From: Mesorhizobium sp. GbtcB19
GTDB taxonomy: Bacteria; Pseudomonadota; Alphaproteobacteria; Rhizobiales; Rhizobiaceae
DNA length: 64,000 nt
Assembly (NCBI RefSeq): GCF_019091085.1
Contig: NZ_JAGXJY010000002.1
Span: 97,683-161,682 of the forward strand
Direction of reading: 5' to 3'
Below the pieces are notes generated by a model, which did no database searches, was not told where the DNA came from, and saw nothing but the letters and a program-made list of their open reading frames with translations. Below are positions 7,010-62,472 of this stretch, one piece after another (position 1 is the first letter of the stretch; every line of letters starts with the position of its first letter). The position numbers and the translations under genes are program-made.

Positions 7010-8323
7010 ATGGGCTTTTCCTATATGCCGGGCTTCGGCAACGACTTTGAAACCGAGACGCTGCCCGGCTCGCTGCCACAGGGCCGCAACTCGCCGCAGC
7101 GGCCGGCCTACGGACTCTATGCCGAGCAGTTGTCCGGCTCGCCCTTCACCGCGCCGCGGGGCACCAATGAGCGCTCCTGGCTCTACCGCATCCGGCCGAG
7201 CGTGAAACACACCGGCCGATTCAAGGGGGCGAGCTATCCCTTGTGGAAGACCGGACCCAGCATCGGCGACCACGAGCTGGCGCTTGGCCAATACCGTTGG
7301 AACCCGACGCCGATGCCGAGCGAGCCGACCGATTTCATCTCCGGCATGCGAACCTTCACCACGGCCGGCGACGCGGTCGGCCAGTCCGGCATGGCCGCGC
7401 ATGTCTATGTCGCCAACCGTTCGATGACCGACGATCATTTCTTCAACGCCGATGGCGAGTTGCTGGTGGTGCCGCAGGTAGGCGCGCTGCGCTTCGTCAC
7501 CGAGATGGGCGTCATCGAGCTTCGCCCCGGCGAGATTGCGGTGCTGCCGCGCGGCCTCGTCTTCAAGGTCGAGCTCGCCGACAAGGAGGCGCGCGGCTAT
7601 GTCTGCGAGAACTATGGCGCCAAATTCACAATGCCCGACCGCGGGCCGATCGGCGCCAACTGCCTGGCCAATCCGCGCGACTTCAAGACGCCCTGCGCCT
7701 GGTTCGAGGAGAAGGAGACGCCGTGCCGGCTGATCGTCAAATGGTGTGGCACTTTCCACGTCACCGAGCTCGGCCATTCGCCGCTCGACGTCGTCGCCTG
7801 GCACGGCAATTACGCGCCCTATAAATATGATCTGGCGACGTTTTCGCCGGTCGGCGCCATCCTGTTCGACCATCCCGACCCGTCGATCTTCACCGTGCTG
7901 ACGGCGCCGAGCGGCGAGGAGGGCACCGCCAATGTCGACTTCGTCATCTTCCCGCCGCGCTGGCTGGTGGCGGAAAACACCTTCCGTCCGCCCTGGTACC
8001 ATCGCAACATCATGAGCGAGTTCATGGGCCTGATCCACGGCCAGTACGACGCCAAGGAGGAGGGGTTCGTGCCTGGCGGCATCAGTTTGCACAACCAGAT
8101 GCTGGCGCACGGGCCCGACGCTTCCGGCTTCGAGAAGGCGACACGGGCCGAGCTGAAGCCGGTCAAGCTCGACAACACCATGGCCTTCATGTTCGAGACG
8201 CGCTTCCCGCAGATGCTGACGCGCTATGCCGCCGAGCTCGGCACCTTGCAGGAGAACTACATCGACTGCTGGGCCGACCTGAAGAAGCGTTTTAATGGCA
8301 CGCCGGAAGGCGATTGGTCTTGA
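7010..8323 (+). CDS. hmgA: Homogentisate 1,2-dioxygenase
   Basis: A mononuclear iron enzyme that opens the ring of homogentisate to maleylacetoacetate in tyrosine and phenylalanine catabolism. The 437-residue protein begins with the family signature M-P-G-F-G-N and carries the iron ligands His331 and Glu337 (Y-H-R-N-I-M-S-E-F) and His367 (Q-M-L-A-H-G), with the same 6- and 30-residue spacings as the human enzyme. An AGGGAGGA-like ribosome-binding site precedes ATG 7010. It heads the unit hmgA-MBL hydrolase-fahA-dinB, in which every stop overlaps or abuts the next start. Confidence 0.97.
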
Positions 8324-9219
8324 GCGCCGACAAAGTGGATCGGCTCGTGCTGCTCGGCTCTAAGGGCGGTCCGGCCTTGCGGCCGGGCGGGCCATGGCCG
8401 AGTTCTTCGCTGCTGGAGTTCGGCGGACGAACCATCGTCGTCGATTGCGGACTGGGCGTCACCCGCGGCCTGGTCGATGCCGGCATCAGCCTGAAGACGC
8501 TTGACCTGATCTTCATCACACATCTCCATTCGGACCATGTTCTGGAACTCGGGCCGCTGATCCATACCGCCTGGACCGCGGGCCTGCCGACGCCGGTGAC
8601 GGTCTACGGACCGCCAGGCACCCACGACCACTGGCGGCATTTCTGCCGGGCGATGGATTTCGACATCGAGATACGCATCGTTGACGAAGGGCGGCCGGAT
8701 ATCCGTAAGCTGGTTTCGGTCGAGGAATTCGGCGAAGGATTGGCCCTGCACTCGCGTGGGCTGACGGTGGCGGCGCTGCGCGTCGACCATCCGCCGGTGA
8801 CCGACTGTTTCGCGCTGCGCTTCGAGCATGGCGGCAGGAGCGTGGTGTTTTCCGCCGACACGGCGTTCTTTCCGCTGTTGGCCGACTTTGCCAAAGGTGC
8901 TGATATCCTCGTCCACGAGGCCATGCTGGAGGAAGGCGTCGAACGGCTGGTCGCCAGGACCGGCAACGGCGCACGGTTGAAAGAGCATCTCTTCGCTAGC
9001 CACAGCTTCGCGGAGGAGGCAGGCTGCATCGCCAGCAATGCCGGGGTAAAAAGGTTGGTGCTCAATCACCTCATTCCGGCCGACGATCCGGCGATCGGCG
9101 AAGCCGACTGGATCGACGCCGTCAGGAAATCGTGGACCGGTGACTTGACGATTGCCCGCGACGGCCTTGTTGTGGGGCTAAGCAGTAAAAAGGCTGCTGG
9201 AGGAGAGGAAACCGCATGA
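8320..9219 (+). CDS. MBL-fold metallohydrolase in the homogentisate operon
   Basis: A metallo-beta-lactamase-fold hydrolase of about 299 residues, close to the RNase Z/arylsulfatase-like branch. The zinc motif T-H-L-H-S-D-H is at about residues 67-73, followed by the G-S-L-T-type region and later ligand residues in F-S-A-D-T-A-F and 'SHSFAEEAG'. I choose TTG 8320, which overlaps the hmgA stop (TTGA) and has a GAAGG site nine bases upstream; TTG 8314 is also possible. It has no signal peptide. Its substrate is unknown. Its place between hmgA and fahA suggests a side reaction of homogentisate or phenylacetate breakdown, such as lactone or thioester hydrolysis, but that is inference. Confidence 0.85.
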
Positions 9220-52098: not shown

Positions 52099-53613
52099 TC
52101 ACAGCACCTCGGCGAGGAATTGCCGGAGTCTCGGGCTCTTCGGCCGGTCGAAGATTTCCGCCGGCGGGCCGACCTCGACGATACGGCCCTCGTCCATGAA
52201 GGCGACCTGGTCGGCCACCTTGCGGGCGAACCCCATCTCATGGGTGACGACGATCATCGTCATGCCGCGCCGGCCGAGATCGGCCATCAGGTTCAGCACG
52301 CCCTTGACCAGTTCGGGATCGAGCGCGCTGGTCACCTCGTCGAAGAGGATGACTTCGGGCTCCATGGCGAGCGCGCGGGCGATCGCCACGCGCTGCTGCT
52401 GGCCGCCCGAAAGGCGACTCGGACGGTAGTCCGCGCGAGCGGCAAGACCTACTTCTGAAAGACGGGCTTCGGCCGCGCGCCGCGCCTGGCTTCCCGCCAT
52501 GCCTTTGATCCTGGTCAGCGCCAGCGTGACGTTCTCGATTGCCGTGTGGTTCGGAAACAGATTGAAATGCTGGAAGACCATGCCGACGCGCCGGCGCAGC
52601 ATCTCCGGTTTCATCGCCAGGATGCTCTGGCCGTCGAGCAACACGTCGCCGGCCTTCGGTTCGACCAGCCGGTTGAGGCAGCGCAGCAGCGTCGACTTTC
52701 CCGAACCCGACGGCCCGATGACGCAGGTGACAGTGCCGGGTTCGACCTTGAGCCTTATTTGCTTCAGCACCTGCAACTCGCCATAGGCCATGTCGAGATC
52801 GCGCACTTCGAGGCTGCCGGCCTTGATCGCCGGCCGCGCCGCGCCGGACGAGGCCGTGTCCTTCAACTCGCCGACCTCGACCAACCCGCTGACCACGCCG
52901 CCCGGCTTCTGCTTGCCGAGCCGCAGGCGGTTGTCGATGGTGTTGACCACATGGGTCAGCGGCACGGTGATGATGAGGTAGAACATGCCGGCCAGAAGCA
53001 GCGGCGACAGGTTGCCGGTGACCACCGCCTGGTCCTGGCCGATGCGGAAAATCTCGCGTTCCGACGCGAGCAGGCCGAGGAAATAGACGAGACTGGAATC
53101 CTTGACGTTGCCGATGAACTGGTTGACCAGGGCAGGCAGTACGCGGCGCACGCCTTGCGGAATGACGATCAGCCGCATGCCCTGGCCGTAGCTCATGGAG
53201 AGCGCGCGGCAGGCTTCCATCTGGCCGCTTTCGACGCTCTGGATGCCCGAGCGAAAGATCTCGCCGATATAGGCGCCGGCGATCAGGCTGAGCGCCAGTA
53301 TGCCGAGCGGGTAAGGGGAGGGGCCGAACAGCTCGCGACCGATGCGGGCAAAGCCCTGGCCGATCAAGAGGATCGTCAGGATGGCGGGGAGTCCACGAAA
53401 AATGTCGGTGTAGACGCGTGCCGGAATGCGCAGCCAGGCGGAGCGCGAGATGCCCATGACGGCAAGCACCATGCCGATGAAGATGCCGAGCACCGTTGAG
53501 GTCGCGGCGAGGATCAATGTATTCTTCAGCCCAACGGCAAGCAGCGACGGCAGCACCTCGGCCATCGCGTCCCAATCGAAAAAGCTGCGCTGAAGGTTTT
53601 CTAACCAGTCCAT
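52099..53613 (-). CDS. Polar amino-acid ABC transporter, fused permease and ATPase
   Basis: A 504-residue fusion. Residues 1-235 are a HisM/GlnP-type permease with about five helices and the contact loop 'EACRALSMSYGQGMRLIVIPQG'. After a linker of about 30 residues, the rest is an ATPase with Walker A G-P-S-G-S-G-K-S-T, signature L-S-G-G-Q-Q-Q-R and Walker B V-I-L-F-D-E-V-T. These parts are usually separate genes. The reading frame is continuous with no sign of a stop between the domains. It imports an amino acid delivered by the binding protein coded just upstream. Confidence 0.94.
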   Translation of the reverse strand: MDWLENLQRSFFDWDAMAEVLPSLLAVGLKNTLILAATSTVLGIFIGMVLAVMGISRSAWLRIPARVYTDIFRGLPAILTILLIGQGFARIGRELFGPSPYPLGILALSLIAGAYIGEIFRSGIQSVESGQMEACRALSMSYGQGMRLIVIPQGVRRVLPALVNQFIGNVKDSSLVYFLGLLASEREIFRIGQDQAVVTGNLSPLLLAGMFYLIITVPLTHVVNTIDNRLRLGKQKPGGVVSGLVEVGELKDTASSGAARPAIKAGSLEVRDLDMAYGELQVLKQIRLKVEPGTVTCVIGPSGSGKSTLLRCLNRLVEPKAGDVLLDGQSILAMKPEMLRRRVGMVFQHFNLFPNHTAIENVTLALTRIKGMAGSQARRAAEARLSEVGLAARADYRPSRLSGGQQQRVAIARALAMEPEVILFDEVTSALDPELVKGVLNLMADLGRRGMTMIVVTHEMGFARKVADQVAFMDEGRIVEVGPPAEIFDRPKSPRLRQFLAEVL

Positions 53614-55900: not shown

Positions 55901-57541
55901 TCAGCTCTCCAGCCACACTTTCTCGAAATGCTGCTCGAGCGACTGGTGCTGTTCGCAGCCCTGCACGCCCTTGCGATAGGTGCGGTAGACCGAGCGCCAG
56001 TAGGGCTGGATGATGATACCGGAATCGCGCAGGTTGGTCTCGATCTTGGCCATGATCTCCTTGCGCTGGCTGGCGTCGGGCGTGGCAAGCGCCTTGTCGA
56101 GAAGTTCGTCGAACTCCTTGTTCGCATAGGCGCTTTCGTTCCACGCCGCGCCCGATTTGTAGGCTAAGGCCAGCACCTGCACGCCGAGCGGGCGACCGAG
56201 CCATTCGGTGCAGGAATAGGGGAACTTGCTCCAGTCGTTCCAGAAGGTCGCGGCCGGCAGCACCGTGCGCTTGATCTTGAAGCCCGCCTCGCGGATCTGC
56301 GCCGCGATGGCGTCGGCGGTGGTCTTTTGCCATTCGATATCGACCGAGATCAGCTCATATTCGTGGTCGGCCTTGCCGGCTTCCGCGATCAGCTTCTTGG
56401 CCTGTTCGACATCGCGCTTGGCCGGGCCGATATCGGCGAATTCCGGATGCATCGGGCCGACATGGTGGTTGTCGGCGGGTTTTCCGCGACCATCGAGTCC
56501 GAGCTTCAGCACCGCTGCATTGTCGACGGCAAGCTGGGCGGCGCGGCGCACCTTGACGTCGTCATAGGGCGCATTGCCGACATTGAAGCGCGCGACGATG
56601 GTCGAGCCGGTGGCGATCTCGGAGTTCTGCAGGCCCATCTTGTCGGTCTGCGACACGGCGTCCGACGCGGTCTCGTGGTCGGTATCGATCTCGCCGGATT
56701 CGAAGGCCGACAGCATGGCGTTGGGGTCGGAGCCGTAGTCGACCCATTTGATGCCGTCGAGATAGAACTCGCCCTTCCACCAGGGCTTGTCCTTGCGCTT
56801 CACCTCGGCACCGGTCTCGGCGTCCCAGCTCACCAACTCGCACGGGCCGGTGGTGATGGCCAGCGCCTTCTTCGGGTCGCCGTCACCCTCATAGGAGCGG
56901 TGCATGATCAGCGCCGGATAGTCGGCCATGCCGGCAATCAGCGAGATGTCGGGCTTGGGCAGGTTGAGCTTGACGGTATAGTCGTCGACTTTCTGGATGC
57001 CGCCATCGACCGGCTTCTTGGTGTCGGCATTGACCAGCGCGCCCATGCGCGCGGCAACCGAATTGCCGGCGACCGAGGCATCGCACCAGCGGTTGAGGTT
57101 GTGCATCACGTCGTCGGCATTGAAAGTGTCGCCATTCGACCAGGTGATGCCCTTGCGCACATGCAGCGTGATCGTCCTGGCGTCGTCGCTGGTCTCCCAG
57201 CTTTCCAGCAACCACGGCTCGAACGAGAAGTCGGTCTTCCAGCGCACCAGATATTCGTTGCAGTGGCGCGCGACATTCGACATCTCGACGCCGTCGAAAG
57301 TGCGCGGGTCTTTAAAACCCTTGACGTTCATGGCGACGCGCAGCACGCCGCCCTTTTTCGGTTCGGCGGCGCGGGCGGGCGAGGGGACGATCCCGCCCAG
57401 CGCCATCGCGCCGGCGGCACTGACGCCGAGGCCGGCCATTAGCGCCAGATATTCGCGCCGGCTGATCGCGCCCGCCTTGAAATCGTCGGCGGTCGGCTTG
57501 GCCCGCGGGTGCAGTTTTCTGTCGGTCAGCATGAATTTCAT
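55901..57541 (-). CDS. Tat-exported oligopeptide-type ABC substrate-binding protein
   Basis: A 546-residue family 5 solute-binding protein. The N-terminus has a twin-arginine motif (I-S-R-R-E-Y-L, Arg28-29), a hydrophobic stretch and a cleavage-like S-P-A-R-A-A near 55-60, so it is probably exported folded. The core '[23 protein letters not shown]' and '[16 protein letters not shown]' are typical of peptide/opine/nickel-type binding proteins. No permease or ATPase gene lies next to it, so its partners are elsewhere or were lost. Substrate unknown. Confidence 0.93.
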
Positions 57542-57700
57542 CGTCGTTCCCTCTGTTGTTGGGCGCCCCGGGATCGCCAGGCGCGGGGGCGGATGCGACC
57601 GCCGGGACGCCGTTGCCTGCCGAGCAATGATAGGTCTGCTTTCCGCGGCGAAATGTTTGGTTTTCCGCAGTTCTTGTGCGCTGTTCCGCAGGACGTTGAA

Positions 57701-57892
57701 GCTGCCAATCTCCCCCCTTGTGGGGGAGATGCCCGGCAGGGCAGAGGGGGGGGCGCTGTCCCGCCGACGTCTCAGCCGATTGAAACCATGTTGCAGATAG
57801 TTCGGAAGGCTAGGAAGCCGAAGGGTTGCGATCCTTCGCGCCCCCCTCTGGCCTGCCGGCCATCTCCCCCACGAGGGGGGAGATTAGCGCTG
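57701..57892. repeat. Inverted pair of family-B repeats, one copy inside a gene end
   Basis: The left member (57701-57760) reads GCTGCCAATCTCCCCCCTTG and the right (57834-57892) is its inverse, ending AGATTAGCGCTGC. The right member overlaps the 3' end of the alpha/beta hydrolase gene and codes for its last residues ([15 protein letters not shown]). Confidence 0.85.
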
Positions 57893-58853
57893 CATCGCTG
57901 GCGCCCAGTGCGCCGATATCCGCAATAATCCTCGCAAACGCCTCCGCCGCGCGCGGCACGGTCGGGCGGGCGCGCAGAAAGCTGTGCACCAGCCGCGGCT
58001 CCTCGCGCCACCAGGCGCAGCCACCTGTGGCCAGAATGCGGTCGCGGTAGGCTTCACCGTCCGACGACAGCGGATCGCATTCGGCAGTGACGATCACCGT
58101 GGGCGGCAGGCCGGAAAAGTCGCGATCCCTGAGCGGCGAGAACGTCGGGTCGTCCAAAACCTGACCCGGTGCCGAACGGACACGGCGGTAGAATTCGATA
58201 TCGGCGAGCGTCAGCAGCGGCGCCTCGGCATGCTCGATGTAGGAACGGCCGCCCTCGTCGCCGCCAAGACTGGGATAGATCAGCACTTGGCCAACGGCAG
58301 GCCGCGCATGCTGCCGCGTCGCTCGTGCCACCGCCGCGGCCAGATTCCCGCCGGCGCTTTCGCCGCAAAGCACGATCGGCAGCGTGCTTATCGCCGCGGC
58401 CCACTCGAACACGGCCAGCGCATCGTCGAACGAAGCGGGGTGCAGGTATTCCGGCGCCAGCCGGTAGTCGGCCGAGATCACCTCGAATCCGGTGCCGGCG
58501 CAGATTTCCGCGCAGATATCGTCATGGCTGTCGAGGTCGCCGAGCACAAAGCCGCCGCCGTGATAATAGACGACGATTGCCGCGGCCGCCTTGCCCACCA
58601 TGCGATAGCGACGGACCGGAATGGCCTGGGCAGCCGTCGCGACGACGCCATCGCTGGTGGTCACACCCGCCGGGCGGCCTTGGTGGAATGCCACGCACAT
58701 CCGATCATAAACCGCGCGCTGCTCCGCGATGGGCGCGGCCACGATCTCCGGCGGGTACCAGCTGTTGACCTTGTCGATATAGTCCCAGAGCTCCGGGTCG
58801 AGCCGGTCGGCATATTTGCCGCGCTCTGCCGGATCGGCTGGGTCGCTGTTCAT
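57810..58853 (-). CDS. Alpha/beta hydrolase (HSL family) with a repeat-encoded tail
   Basis: A 347-residue carboxylesterase of the hormone-sensitive lipase family. It has the oxyanion motif H-G-G-G-F, the nucleophile elbow G-E-S-A-G-G, the acid in A-E-C-D-P-L and the base in L-V-H-S-F. The last 26 or so residues are coded by a family-B intergenic repeat in reverse orientation and are not part of the fold, so the natural stop was probably lost when the repeat was inserted. ATG 58853 lies 5 bases after the isochorismatase gene, so the two are coupled. Substrate unknown. Confidence 0.9.
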
Positions 58854-58858
58854 CGCCG

Positions 58859-59536
58859 TCAGAGCTCTGCGTAAAGCCGCGCCGCGTTCTCGAAGGTGAA
58901 GCGCAGCGGCACGGAGCCCTCGACCTGCCACACATTGACCGTGTCGCCGGCCATCAGCCGGCAGGCGTCGAGCGTGTTGGTGACGGCGCCGCCATAGAGC
59001 CGGTTGGCGAGGTTGAGGATGCCGGTCTGGTGCATGGCGGCGCTCGCGCTGCCGCAGGCGTCCTTGACCAGCAGCACGCGAAACCCAAGCGCCACCGCGT
59101 CCTTCACGGTGGCGTCGATGCAGGCCTCGGTCCACACCCCGGCGATCACCAGCCATTCGATGCCGGACGCCTTGAGTTTTTGGGCAAAATCGTTCTTGCC
59201 GAAGGCGCTCGCTTCCTGCTTGACCAGCGTGGCTTCTCCGTTCTGCGGCGCCACTTCATGGCAGATCGCCGTCAGCGGATCGTCCTTGTCGGAAAAGGCC
59301 GACTTGCCGCTATCGTCCACAGGGTGGAACGGCCGCGCCTCGGCGAGATCGACGATATAGGCCCAGTGATGGAGCGGCACGAAATTGCGCCGCGCCGCCT
59401 CCTGCAGCCGCTGGACGTTGGCGAGGATGTCGGCAAACCCCTCGACCAGATAGCGTCTGTCCTTGCGATGTTCCTCCTGGAGATCGATGAACACCGCGGC
59501 CACCGTGCCGCGCCGGATGGAAATTGGATTCTTCAT
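58859..59536 (-). CDS. Isochorismatase-family cysteine hydrolase
   Basis: A 225-residue hydrolase of the isochorismatase/nicotinamidase superfamily. The catalytic triad is visible as Asp18 (F-I-D-L-Q), Lys106 (T-L-V-K-Q-E) and Cys139 (W-T-E-A-C-I-D-A-T). A cis-peptide-like 'GVWTEAC' precedes the cysteine. The superfamily hydrolyses amides and ureido compounds (nicotinamide, N-carbamoylsarcosine, biuret, isochorismate), and the substrate here is not clear. ATG 59536 is used. It lies upstream of the esterase gene (5-base gap) and downstream of the M24 gene. Confidence 0.9.
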   Translation of the reverse strand: MKNPISIRRGTVAAVFIDLQEEHRKDRRYLVEGFADILANVQRLQEAARRNFVPLHHWAYIVDLAEARPFHPVDDSGKSAFSDKDDPLTAICHEVAPQNGEATLVKQEASAFGKNDFAQKLKASGIEWLVIAGVWTEACIDATVKDAVALGFRVLLVKDACGSASAAMHQTGILNLANRLYGGAVTNTLDACRLMAGDTVNVWQVEGSVPLRFTFENAARLYAEL

Positions 59537-59625: not shown

Positions 59626-59806
59626 CGTCATCCACGGGCGAAGCAGGAGCGCAGCGACGCGGCGCAGACCCGAGGATCCATGCCGTGACGTTGGCCAAGT
59701 AACATAGCGGAGCAGAATTTGCACCGTTGCGGCACTTGGGAGTCCCGGCATGGATCCTAGGGTCTGCGCCGCGTCGCTGCGCTCCTTGCTTCGGCCTAGG
59801 ATGACG
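59626..59806. repeat. Family-C intergenic repeat, inverted pair
   Basis: Left arm starts CGTCATCCACGGGCGAAGCA, with GCGCAGACCCGAGGATCCAT inside. The right arm is ATGGATCCTAGGGTCTGCGC and ends CTTCGGCCTAGGATGACG. It is the second copy of the family seen at 37555-37754 and fills most of the 337-base gap between the isochorismatase and M24 genes; nothing else is visible there. Confidence 0.85.
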
Positions 59807-59873: not shown

Positions 59874-61178
59874 TCAAACCTGCGGCTCCAGGAATTCATC
59901 CTCATACGGAAACCGCGAGAGCAGCTCCGTCCCGGTCTCGGTAATGAGAATCTCGTCCTCCAGTTTGACGCCTTCGCGGCCGCCTTTCTCGCCGATATAG
60001 CTTTCGACGCTGACCACCATGCCCGGCACGATGACGCCGTCGCGGCCATAGGTCTCGTAGTCCATCGCATGCGCGATGAAAGGCGTCTCGCCATGCATGC
60101 CGACGCCGTGCATGACCGACGTGTAGCGCTGATCGACGAAGCGGTCGGGGATTTTCCAGGCTTTCTCGGCGATCTCGCGGAAGGCCATGCCGGGCTTCAC
60201 GATACCGATATTGTGCTGCACCTGGTCATGCGCCATCCGGTAGAGCGACTTCTGGTAAGGCGTCGGCTTGCCCGGGCCGCACCGGAAGGTGCGCGAGAAG
60301 TCGGAATAATAGCCGTAGCAACCGATCGTGTCGGTATCGAGCGCCAGCAATTCGCCCGGCCGGATTTTGCGGCCGCTCGCTTCGTTGAACCATGGATTGG
60401 TGCGCTGACCCGAGGTGAGCAGGCGGGTCTCGATGAACTCGCCACCCTGGCGGATGACCTCGCCATACATGATGGCGAAAAGCTCGTTCTCGGAAACGCC
60501 GGGCTTGATCGCCTCGCGCACCGCCGCCACCGCGGCTTCGGCGCCCGCCATCGATGCCAGCAGGCATTTCACTTCCTCGGGCGTCTTCACTGCGCGCACG
60601 GCCAGGATCTCGCCCTGGCAGTCCTTCACCTCGCAGCCGCGCTTTTCCAGCGCCAGCGCCTGCAGATGGCTGCAGCGGTCGAGCCCGAGCTTCATCGAGC
60701 CGCCGCCATGCTTCTTGAGCAACTCGGCGATCTCGTCGGCGAAAGGCCCGGCGGTCTCGTCGTCACGGCCCGACACCGAGGACCAGACCAGCTTCGAAGG
60801 CCGCGCCTCGTCGATCGTGTCGAGCACCATCGAGACATGGTAGCTCTGCGGATATTCGAACAGCACGATCGGCCCGTCGGGCGGGATGAAGAAATAGCGG
60901 GTCGAATTGCGCAGGAAATAGCCGAACATGTTGCGCGAGCCGGTGGCGTAGCGCTGGTTGTAGGGATCGAACAAAACAATGCCGCCATAGCCCGCCTCGC
61001 GCATCCAGGCGCGAAGCTTTGCCAGCCGCCCCTTGCGCAGCGCATCGGCATCGATGAAGGACGGCTCGGTGTCCGATAGCCACATGCCGCCCGCTGGGTC
61101 GGCCGCGGCCGGGTGGCGCATGCGGTCCTTGAAGTCCACATCCTCGGTGCTGTCGGGGTCGAATACGACGATGCTCAT
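59874..61178 (-). CDS. M24-family protein of the DddP-like group
   Basis: A 434-residue protein with an N-terminal creatinase-like domain and a C-terminal pita-bread M24 domain. The two-metal ligands are Asp281, Asp283, Asp293, His357, Glu392 and Glu407. Their spacing is identical to that I recall for the DMSP lyase DddP (Asp295 to Glu421), and flanking segments such as 'RQGGEFIETRLLTSGQRTNPWF' resemble it. However, the position of the DddP catalytic Asp377 is Gly363 here (H-G-V-G-M-H-G-E-T-P). It is therefore related to DddP, but DMSP lyase activity is doubtful; Xaa-Pro peptidase or creatinase-like hydrolysis is possible. Confidence 0.87.
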   Translation of the reverse strand: MSIVVFDPDSTEDVDFKDRMRHPAAADPAGGMWLSDTEPSFIDADALRKGRLAKLRAWMREAGYGGIVLFDPYNQRYATGSRNMFGYFLRNSTRYFFIPPDGPIVLFEYPQSYHVSMVLDTIDEARPSKLVWSSVSGRDDETAGPFADEIAELLKKHGGGSMKLGLDRCSHLQALALEKRGCEVKDCQGEILAVRAVKTPEEVKCLLASMAGAEAAVAAVREAIKPGVSENELFAIMYGEVIRQGGEFIETRLLTSGQRTNPWFNEASGRKIRPGELLALDTDTIGCYGYYSDFSRTFRCGPGKPTPYQKSLYRMAHDQVQHNIGIVKPGMAFREIAEKAWKIPDRFVDQRYTSVMHGVGMHGETPFIAHAMDYETYGRDGVIVPGMVVSVESYIGEKGGREGVKLEDEILITETGTELLSRFPYEDEFLEPQV

Positions 61179-61294
61179 GGGAAGTCTCCTGTTGGGGAGA
61201 CCATAGCCGGGCGGGGCGTTGAGCTTGTGCGGAATCCCGCGATTGTTGTGCCAGATGCCGCAGGAGTGCTGGGCGAGAAACGGTAGGCGCCGCG

Positions 61295-61471
61295 TTCCTT
61301 CGCGCCCCCCTCTGTCCTGCCGGACATCTCCCCCACGAGGGGGGAGATTGGCAGCTTCGGCGCCGGCTGTCCCTTTCAACGTTGGAGATTGGCGAAAGCC
61401 GGAGCGACATCTGATCTCCCCCCAAGTGGGGGATGTCCGGCAGGACAGAGGGGGGCGCTGTCCCACCTGCG
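61295..61471. repeat. Inverted pair of family-B intergenic repeats
   Basis: Left copy CGCGCCCCCCTCTGTCCTGC through ACGAGGGGGGAGATTGGCAG, right copy the inverse, ending GATGTCCGGCAGGACAGAGG. It occupies most of the 316-base gap between the M24 gene and the AraC regulator, and no gene is visible in that gap. Confidence 0.85.
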
Positions 61472-61494
61472 TCTCATCGCGCAGCGCGCACCAC

Positions 61495-62472
61495 CTAATG
61501 CCTCCTCATCGCCTTAGGCGCATGCCCATGCTCCTCGCGAAAGGCCCTTGCAAAACTCGACATCGAGGCAAACCCGCACGCCAGTGCCACGTCGCGCACC
61601 ATCAGCGTCGAATGCGCGAGCAGGTCGGCGGCGCGCTTCAGCCGGAGCCGCCGGTAATAGCCGTTGGGCGAGATATCGAGTTCGGCGCGGAAATTGCGCT
61701 CCAGCTTGTCGGGGGACACGCCAAGCCTTGTCGCAAGCTCGGCCATGCCGAGCCGCTCCTCGACAGCGTCCTCCATAATGGCGATGGCCGACAGCACCAG
61801 CTCGTTCTGCACGCCCGTGCGCAGCCTGAGCGGCATCAGCTTGCGATCGACGCTAGAGCGCAGCGGGGAGTGGACGAACCATTCCGCGACACCCGCCGCG
61901 ATCTCGGCGCCATAGTCGCGCGTGATGATCTCCAGCATCATGTCGAGGCTGCCGACACCGCCGGCCGACGTGAAGCGCTTGCGGTCGATGACGAAGAGGT
62001 CGCGCCGGAGCTCGATGTCCGGAAAGGCCTCGGTGAAGGCGGCCTGGCTGGTCCAGTGCAAGGTGCAGGCATGGCCGTCGAGCAGGCCGGCGCGGGCCAG
62101 GAAGAACGCGGCATCCGCCACCGCGCCGATATGCGCGCCGCCGCGCAGGCTTTTGCGGATCCAGCTCATCGCCTCGTCGGCGACGACATGGTCGGCATCG
62201 CCGCCGGAGCACACCACGATGCGATCGACCTTCGGCGCGTCGACAGCTGAGAAACCCGGCTGGATGACGACACCGTTGGACGCCTCGACCGTGCCTCGAT
62301 CGGCGCCGACAATCACCCAACGATAGCATTCGCGCCCGGCAAGCACGTTGGCGGCGCGCAGCGGCTCGATGACGGACGAAAACGCCATCATCGGAAAGCC
62401 CGGAAAGACCAGCACGGCGAAAGTGAGGGGAGATGCGGTGGGCTTCGACCCGCCATGCGAAGGGACACTCAT
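61495..62472 (-). CDS. GlxA-family AraC-type transcriptional regulator
   Basis: A 325-residue regulator with an N-terminal DJ-1/PfpI-like (glutamine-amidotransferase-like) domain of about 190 residues and a C-terminal AraC DNA-binding domain with two helix-turn-helix motifs ('MAELATRLGVSPDKLERNF' and 'VRDVALACGFASMSSFARAF'). This architecture is shared by regulators of glycine betaine, carnitine and related quaternary-amine catabolism. The same-strand M24 gene starts about 320 bases downstream, so it may control that cluster. ATG 62472 is used. Confidence 0.92.
   Translation of the reverse strand: MSVPSHGGSKPTASPLTFAVLVFPGFPMMAFSSVIEPLRAANVLAGRECYRWVIVGADRGTVEASNGVVIQPGFSAVDAPKVDRIVVCSGGDADHVVADEAMSWIRKSLRGGAHIGAVADAAFFLARAGLLDGHACTLHWTSQAAFTEAFPDIELRRDLFVIDRKRFTSAGGVGSLDMMLEIITRDYGAEIAAGVAEWFVHSPLRSSVDRKLMPLRLRTGVQNELVLSAIAIMEDAVEERLGMAELATRLGVSPDKLERNFRAELDISPNGYYRRLRLKRAADLLAHSTLMVRDVALACGFASMSSFARAFREEHGHAPKAMRRH

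Follow-up and report, generated by a model that had tools for sequence, protein, structure and literature searches.

Our data imply that P0001, a protein encoded in the 64,000-nucleotide stretch of Mesorhizobium sp. GbtcB19 DNA analysed here (the window), belongs to a branch of the DddP superfamily that is distinct from the DMSP lyases. Judged from its sequence and its gene context, it is probably a betaine-pathway enzyme that has not been described before, and not a DMSP lyase. We tentatively read it as an M24B-fold enzyme with a dimetal site and a catabolic role, which may hydrolyse a C-N bond of a betaine-like substrate.

The gene lies on the minus strand and runs from the ATG at 61178 to its stop codon without an internal stop; on the plus strand of the same interval a stop is present in the frame that was read. 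The minus-strand frame stays open upstream as far as 61466. We place the start at 61178, because the N-terminal residues that follow it are kept in 26 aligned Mesorhizobium-type proteins and an AGGAG is found immediately upstream of this ATG. When the gene was compared over 430 codons with its M. metallidurans counterpart (L067), 115 of the 136 nucleotide differences fell on third positions, therefore P0001 is a coding sequence under constraint. The nearest relatives are from Mesorhizobium at nearly all of 80 loci (94-99% identity), and each of the eight Mesorhizobium genomes in the order sample, that of the host (6.72 Mb) counted, carries a gene of this type. A gene of at least 90% identity is also carried by 65 of the 179 matching plasmid records, which, among the records listed, are mostly from Sinorhizobium. 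It is nevertheless named only as a peptidase: the NCBI names of the orthologues are "Xaa-Pro peptidase family protein" or "aminopeptidase P family protein", where the preliminary description of this DNA had expected either Xaa-Pro dipeptidase or DddP. Among the titles and abstract openings searched, none was found that treats the His-Gly-Glu branch of DddP-like proteins.

Table 1. The P0001 gene, its neighbours and the repeat elements in the window.
Feature	Position	Strand	Details
DddP-like M24 (pita-bread) metalloenzyme P0001	59874..61178	-	434 aa; ligands D281, D283, D293, H357, E392, E407
GlxA/AraC-type regulator, GbdR-like	61495..62472	-	NCBIfam GbdR 291.9 bits, cut-off 480
Isochorismatase-family hydrolase	58859..59536	-	225 aa
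HSL-type alpha/beta hydrolase	57810..58853	-	LipP1 model 225.7 bits, cut-off 350 (score from the scan of a longer ORF reading)
DppA-like (family 5) solute-binding protein	55901..57541	-	
Inverted-repeat element	59645..59786	.	45-nt arms, 96% complementary; between the M24 and isochorismatase genes
Two related palindromic intergenic sites	57698-57888 and 61292-61476		inverted pairs: 52-nt arms 90%, 44-nt arms 86%

The top solved relatives of P0001 are the Ruegeria DddP structures 4s01, 4rzy and 4s00 (E 2e-72 to 5e-71), followed by 4b28 (E 7e-68). The phmmer match to RlDddP (PDB 4s01) covers residues 43-427 with an E-value of 2.1e-72 and 247 bits, at 36% identity over the aligned part; the best prolidase structure reaches E 5.6e-21 and 78 bits. 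Pfam assigns Peptidase_M24 (PF00557; 118.4 bits, cut-off 23) and Creatinase_N to the protein. The NCBIfam DddP model NF043017 scores 312.7 bits, below its cut-off of 600; PepQ, the best Xaa-Pro peptidase equivalog, scores 68.8 bits against a cut-off of 630, and the DoeA model 51.3 bits against 575. Creatinase and the ectoine hydrolase DoeA are M24-fold enzymes acting on small zwitterions, but both match P0001 only weakly in sequence (36 bits for the creatinase structure 1chm), and creatinase is not known to have the metal ligands that are present in P0001.

P0001 is like RlDddP (4rzy, 4s01) and RdDddP in the M24 fold, as judged by sequence, in the spacing of the metal ligands and in Tyr366, which is kept as Tyr352. 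The preliminary description had claimed that all six ligands match those of DddP in order and exact spacing, and this is what we find: the residues listed in Table 1 correspond, in the same order, to RlDddP D295, D297, D307, H371, E406 and E421, and an offset of 14 holds at all six as well as at Tyr366 and E378 (E364 in P0001). Alignment, including that to the solved structure, likewise confirmed the claim that the catalytic Asp377 of DddP is replaced by Gly363, flanked by His362 and Glu364; His362 takes the place of Cys376. In addition to the points made there, the sulfonium-binding Trp95 is replaced by Tyr87. According to the part of a review cited here (PMC5395565), Trp and Tyr bind the DMSP sulfur in DddP and Asp takes the proton; the numbers 95 and 366 for these residues were matched by us. 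The RdDddP study, in the passage cited, favours Asp377 as the base with Tyr366 as the alternative and describes both as invariant in DddP lyases (PMC4108388). An AlphaFold2 model of P0001 built from 26 near-identical sequences has a mean pLDDT of 41.7, therefore the position of His362 is not fixed by the model.

The loss of both residues is not a peculiarity of P0001: Gly363 together with Tyr87 is a trait of its whole clade. Among 96 aligned rows, the residues at positions 377 and 95 (DddP numbering) are Asp/Trp in 51, Gly/Tyr in 34 and Gly/Phe in 5. Gly/Asn, Asp/Phe, Val/Arg and Gly/Trp occur once each, the last in L175, where one additional residue in the motif makes the alignment unsure, and two incomplete rows show a gap. 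The ligand set DDDHEE is kept in 93 of the 96 rows, the exceptions being the incomplete L148 and L211 and, again, L175. Every intact row that is 56-100% identical to P0001 has His-Gly-Glu and a Tyr at position 95. In a tree of 85 rows, calculated with the residue columns of interest masked, the P0001 clade (clade B) comprises 21 rows with a support of 98/100, and a second Gly-type group (clade A), with Thr or Ala ahead of the Gly, comprises 8 rows (96/88). The remaining 51 ingroup rows, DddP among them, lie across one branch (96/98), and 49 of them are of the Asp type, the two others being L175 and one gene of L207. Forcing clade B together with 13 rows of the DddP side, a group picked after the tree had been viewed, lowered the log-likelihood by 139.7 and was rejected (p-AU 2.49e-59). 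The sister branch that had been suggested earlier is therefore recovered as a separate clade. The different reaction proposed for it also appears likely from the residues, with Gly in all intact clade members and the sulfonium-binding Trp replaced too. The outgroup attaches weakly (80/57) and has an Asp aligned at column 377 in three of its five rows, thus we make no claim on whether Asp or Gly is ancestral.

The host genome itself carries a DddP-like gene of the other type. This paralogue (C1:371525-372673) shares the ligands and 42% identity with P0001, but it keeps Asp and Trp (motif ADEY) and groups in the tree with the DddP side; it scores 471.9 bits with the DddP model, below the cut-off of 600. 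It adjoins MttB and a DMGDH-like gene, and farther along lies one whose product scores 565.9 bits with the betaine-homocysteine methyltransferase model, above the cut-off of 338. Here and below, "DMGDH-like" is our name, taken from domain architecture, for a DAO-GcvT oxidase.

We compared gene neighbourhoods by clustering the genes around 27 clade-B loci (7 from the deep group B2, L139-L145, and 20 from B1), 10 loci filed under A, of which L214 is actually Asp-type, and 19 C loci, of which L165 yielded no genes. The gene caller was trained on the genes of L180 and L181, and it recovers 25 of 25 L180 genes, themselves in the training set. The preliminary description had placed an isochorismatase-family hydrolase, an esterase and a GlxA-type regulator near the M24 gene, and all of them are present in the window. 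They are conserved beyond it: at all 20 B1 loci a GlxA-type gene stands just before the M24 gene and an isochorismatase-family gene after it, and an HSL-type hydrolase homologue is found at 19. Eleven Mesorhizobium-type loci have the set GlxA, M24, isochorismatase and HSL, followed in 10 of them by the DppA-like binding protein. The M24 gene ends and the isochorismatase gene begins on one shared base in Sinorhizobium meliloti LMB1 and in Shinella. Besides the GlxA-type regulator and the isochorismatase, the islands there encode MttB, a DAO-GcvT oxidase, an ABC transporter of the ProU/OsmF type, an enzyme of the MR family and an oxidoreductase of the Ldh family. The small-molecule catabolic set that had been suspected is supported and can be narrowed, as the M24 gene stands with genes for glycine-betaine transport or demethylation in Sinorhizobium, Shinella and several other lineages; these neighbours are a trait found outside Mesorhizobium itself.

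The deep group has another partner. A HalD-family protein is encoded directly upstream of the M24 gene at all seven B2 loci, and the HalD-type and M24 pair recurs at two of the nine Gly-type A loci (L162 and L213), with OpuAC next to it at L213. One member of this family scores 67.5 bits with Pfam (cut-off 26), and the hydroxylase-type HxD motif is present in all nine members checked, six of them from B2 loci (L139 not among them). The HalD-family Fe/2OG protein and the Gly-type M24 protein form a conserved pair. A uniform betaine set for clade A (Thr/Ala-Gly-Glu) was ruled out by its mixed neighbourhoods, riboflavin and chorismate genes at L153 and unrelated genes at other loci. Asp-type relatives other than DddP proper sometimes do have such neighbours: among the 19 C loci MttB is found at 5 and a ferredoxin-type reductase at 4, the close relatives L159, L160 and L177 not being independent cases; at Rhizobium L215 the reductase is annotated beside a ring-hydroxylating dioxygenase, with formaldehyde genes near. 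Four loci (L169, L170, L172 and L178) encode M24 proteins that share 66-85% identity with RlDddP; within about 8 kb of these, no MttB, ProU, isochorismatase or HSL cluster was found, and the gene neighbourhood is a further point in which P0001 differs from DddP.

The proximity of betaine genes exceeds what random placement, our chance model, would give. OpuAC, the glycine-betaine binding protein, lies within about 10 kb of the M24 gene at 8 of 14 clade-B loci outside the genus of the window (expected 0.32, P 1.5e-10); for MttB the count is 5 of 14 (expected 0.12, P 5e-8). Counted per family, with a hit at any locus sufficing, the figures are 4 of 6 for OpuAC (expected 0.31, P 6e-5) and 3 of 6 for MttB (expected 0.12, P 9e-5), and these are the safer ones. 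The 14 loci omit the Sinorhizobium and Shinella plasmid loci, where both genes are present, the genus of the window, and the Mesorhizobium-type L042, L048 and L080, where neither was seen. The window's own locus lacks both MttB and OpuAC near the M24 gene and has a binding protein of the peptide type instead; on the same contig of the host genome the nearest MttB and OpuAC are about 74 and 67 kb away. Within 10 kb of the M24 gene, MttB was found in none of nine Mesorhizobium genomes and OpuAC in two, G209 (about 7 kb, 74.8 bits) and G537 (about 10 kb, 69.8 bits), both weak matches when most others in these genomes exceed 150 bits.

The metal site is kept, two DddP residues are lost and betaine genes are found in several lineages, therefore a C-N hydrolase fits best. 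Such an enzyme would cleave a C-N bond of a small betaine-like substrate, quaternary or N-methylated, by metal-activated water at the dimetal site. An ABC system of the glycine-betaine type would bring the substrate into the cell in the orthologous clusters, and the M24 enzyme would trim it together with its partners, the isochorismatase-type hydrolase and the HSL esterase in one lineage and the HalD-type Fe/2OG protein in another. Enzymes of the MttB and DMGDH type would then demethylate the product, under a GlxA-type regulator, and the Mesorhizobium copy may have the same role as its relatives. We count for this reading the ligands, the loss of Asp and Trp, the clade, the low DddP score, the GbdR-like regulator, the proximity of OpuAC and MttB and the island genes; we count against it the rarity of OpuAC and MttB near the gene in Mesorhizobium, the recurrent family-5 binding protein and His362 as a possible lyase base. 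To our knowledge, no M24 step is known in betaine demethylation, and therefore our confidence in the C-N hydrolase stays somewhat below one half. As regards the demethylating partner, in Desulfitobacterium the MttB-family (PF06253) proteins function as methyltransferases for glycine betaine, such proteins are increased in R. pomeroyi on glycine betaine, and a set of this kind occurs in S. meliloti, according to the part of PMC12478193 cited here. An mttB gene of M. alhagi is reported in the cited section of PMC4302635 to go up under salt, yet growth of the mutant was normal, which counts against a simple osmolyte role.

One would argue that the DddP-like mechanism was retained and that P0001 is an onium lyase for another substrate, with His362 or Tyr352 as the base in the beta-elimination of a trimethylammonium or dimethylsulfonium group. 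The similarity and spacing shared with DddP agree with this, as do the His362 that adjoins Gly363 in all intact rows of the clade, the betaine-type transporters close to several relatives, and the retention, as Tyr352, of the very Tyr366 that the RdDddP authors name as alternative base in the passage cited (PMC4108388). However, neither the proposed base nor the Trp that binds the sulfonium is kept, and the isochorismatase and esterase partners point to hydrolysis. Thus we consider an onium lyase unlikely. That P0001 is a DMSP lyase after all is highly improbable: its phmmer E-value to RlDddP is below the E < 1e-70 used for a DddP survey in the cited part of the review (PMC5395565), but Asp377 and Trp95 are lost, the HMM score is about half the cut-off and the protein lies outside the DddP clade by the AU test. 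We reject this assignment on the two active-site residues, the HMM score and the tree.

A plain M24B Xaa-Pro dipeptidase or aminopeptidase, as in the NCBI naming, is quite unlikely. The Pfam domains would suit it, prolidases are the next-best solved structures, and family-5 (DppA/OppA-type) binding proteins are encoded after the cluster in Mesorhizobium and near L143 of the deep branch, near L146 and L147, and near the clade-A L161. However, P0001 is far nearer to DddP than to the best prolidase, and betaine-type genes are the neighbours in other lineages. The M24 domain of the Xaa-Pro dipeptidase 3q6d aligns with P0001 over residues 141-426, but its HGIGLEIHE, with His directly ahead of Glu, finds no counterpart of equal length for the HExP motif: the stretch HGVGMHGETP of P0001 is one residue shorter, has Gly at that place and has His362 two residues ahead of the Glu. 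Even RlDddP itself is inactive on Val-Pro, as stated in the cited part of PMC5395565.

Compared with the C-N hydrolase, a wider evolutionary scheme is doubtful. It could be that DddP is a marine offshoot of an older betaine-catabolic M24 family, and that a quaternary amino acid is the substrate of a new reaction in the His-Gly-Glu branch, with HalD-type hydroxylation followed by M24 cleavage in some lineages and release of a simple betaine for demethylation. If true, this would go some way towards explaining why the Km of DddP for DMSP is high, and the branch suggests where the DMSP lyase may have originated. Of more immediate use is the residue rule, Asp with Trp against Gly with Tyr or Phe, which would keep non-DddP proteins out of DMSP-lyase surveys that use the E-value alone. 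P0001 reaches 2e-72 where the review's survey, run with a different program and database, took E < 1e-70 (PMC5395565, part cited), and a metagenome study, in the text cited, ascribes most ddd genes in sediment to Rhizobiales, Rhodobacterales and Pseudomonadales, with candidates filtered on trees (PMC7039863). The analysis also pinpoints, in the model symbiont S. meliloti, a gene cluster that is short and open to experimental test.

Several further observations were made at the loci compared. In L148 (G126, about 7700-9115) the frame of the clade-B gene is lost near residue 345, through a frameshift or a sequencing error, and the cluster around it is otherwise typical. L207 has two DddP-like genes close together (centres about 2126 and 3679), the second of which carries Val (377) and Arg (95) and represents a further active-site type. 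The MR-family neighbour in the S. meliloti island (L180, 25714-26838) matches 2pgw, named muconate cycloisomerase, with E 1.2e-251, and its gene context suggests a betaine-related role rather than that activity. We did not retain it as an HpbD-type hydroxyproline-betaine epimerase: 2pgw is its best solved relative, and 2pmq and 4h2h, which we take to be the HpbD structures, are absent among the best 60 of 65 matches.

Within the window, one 504-aa protein (52099-53613) fuses an ABC permease (BPD_transp_1) with an ATPase domain, and its gene adjoins those of an amino-acid binding protein and a DAO-type oxidoreductase. The inverted-repeat element between the M24 and isochorismatase genes differs from the related pair of palindromic sites, and all three look like the rhizobial intergenic mosaic repeats that insert into operons.
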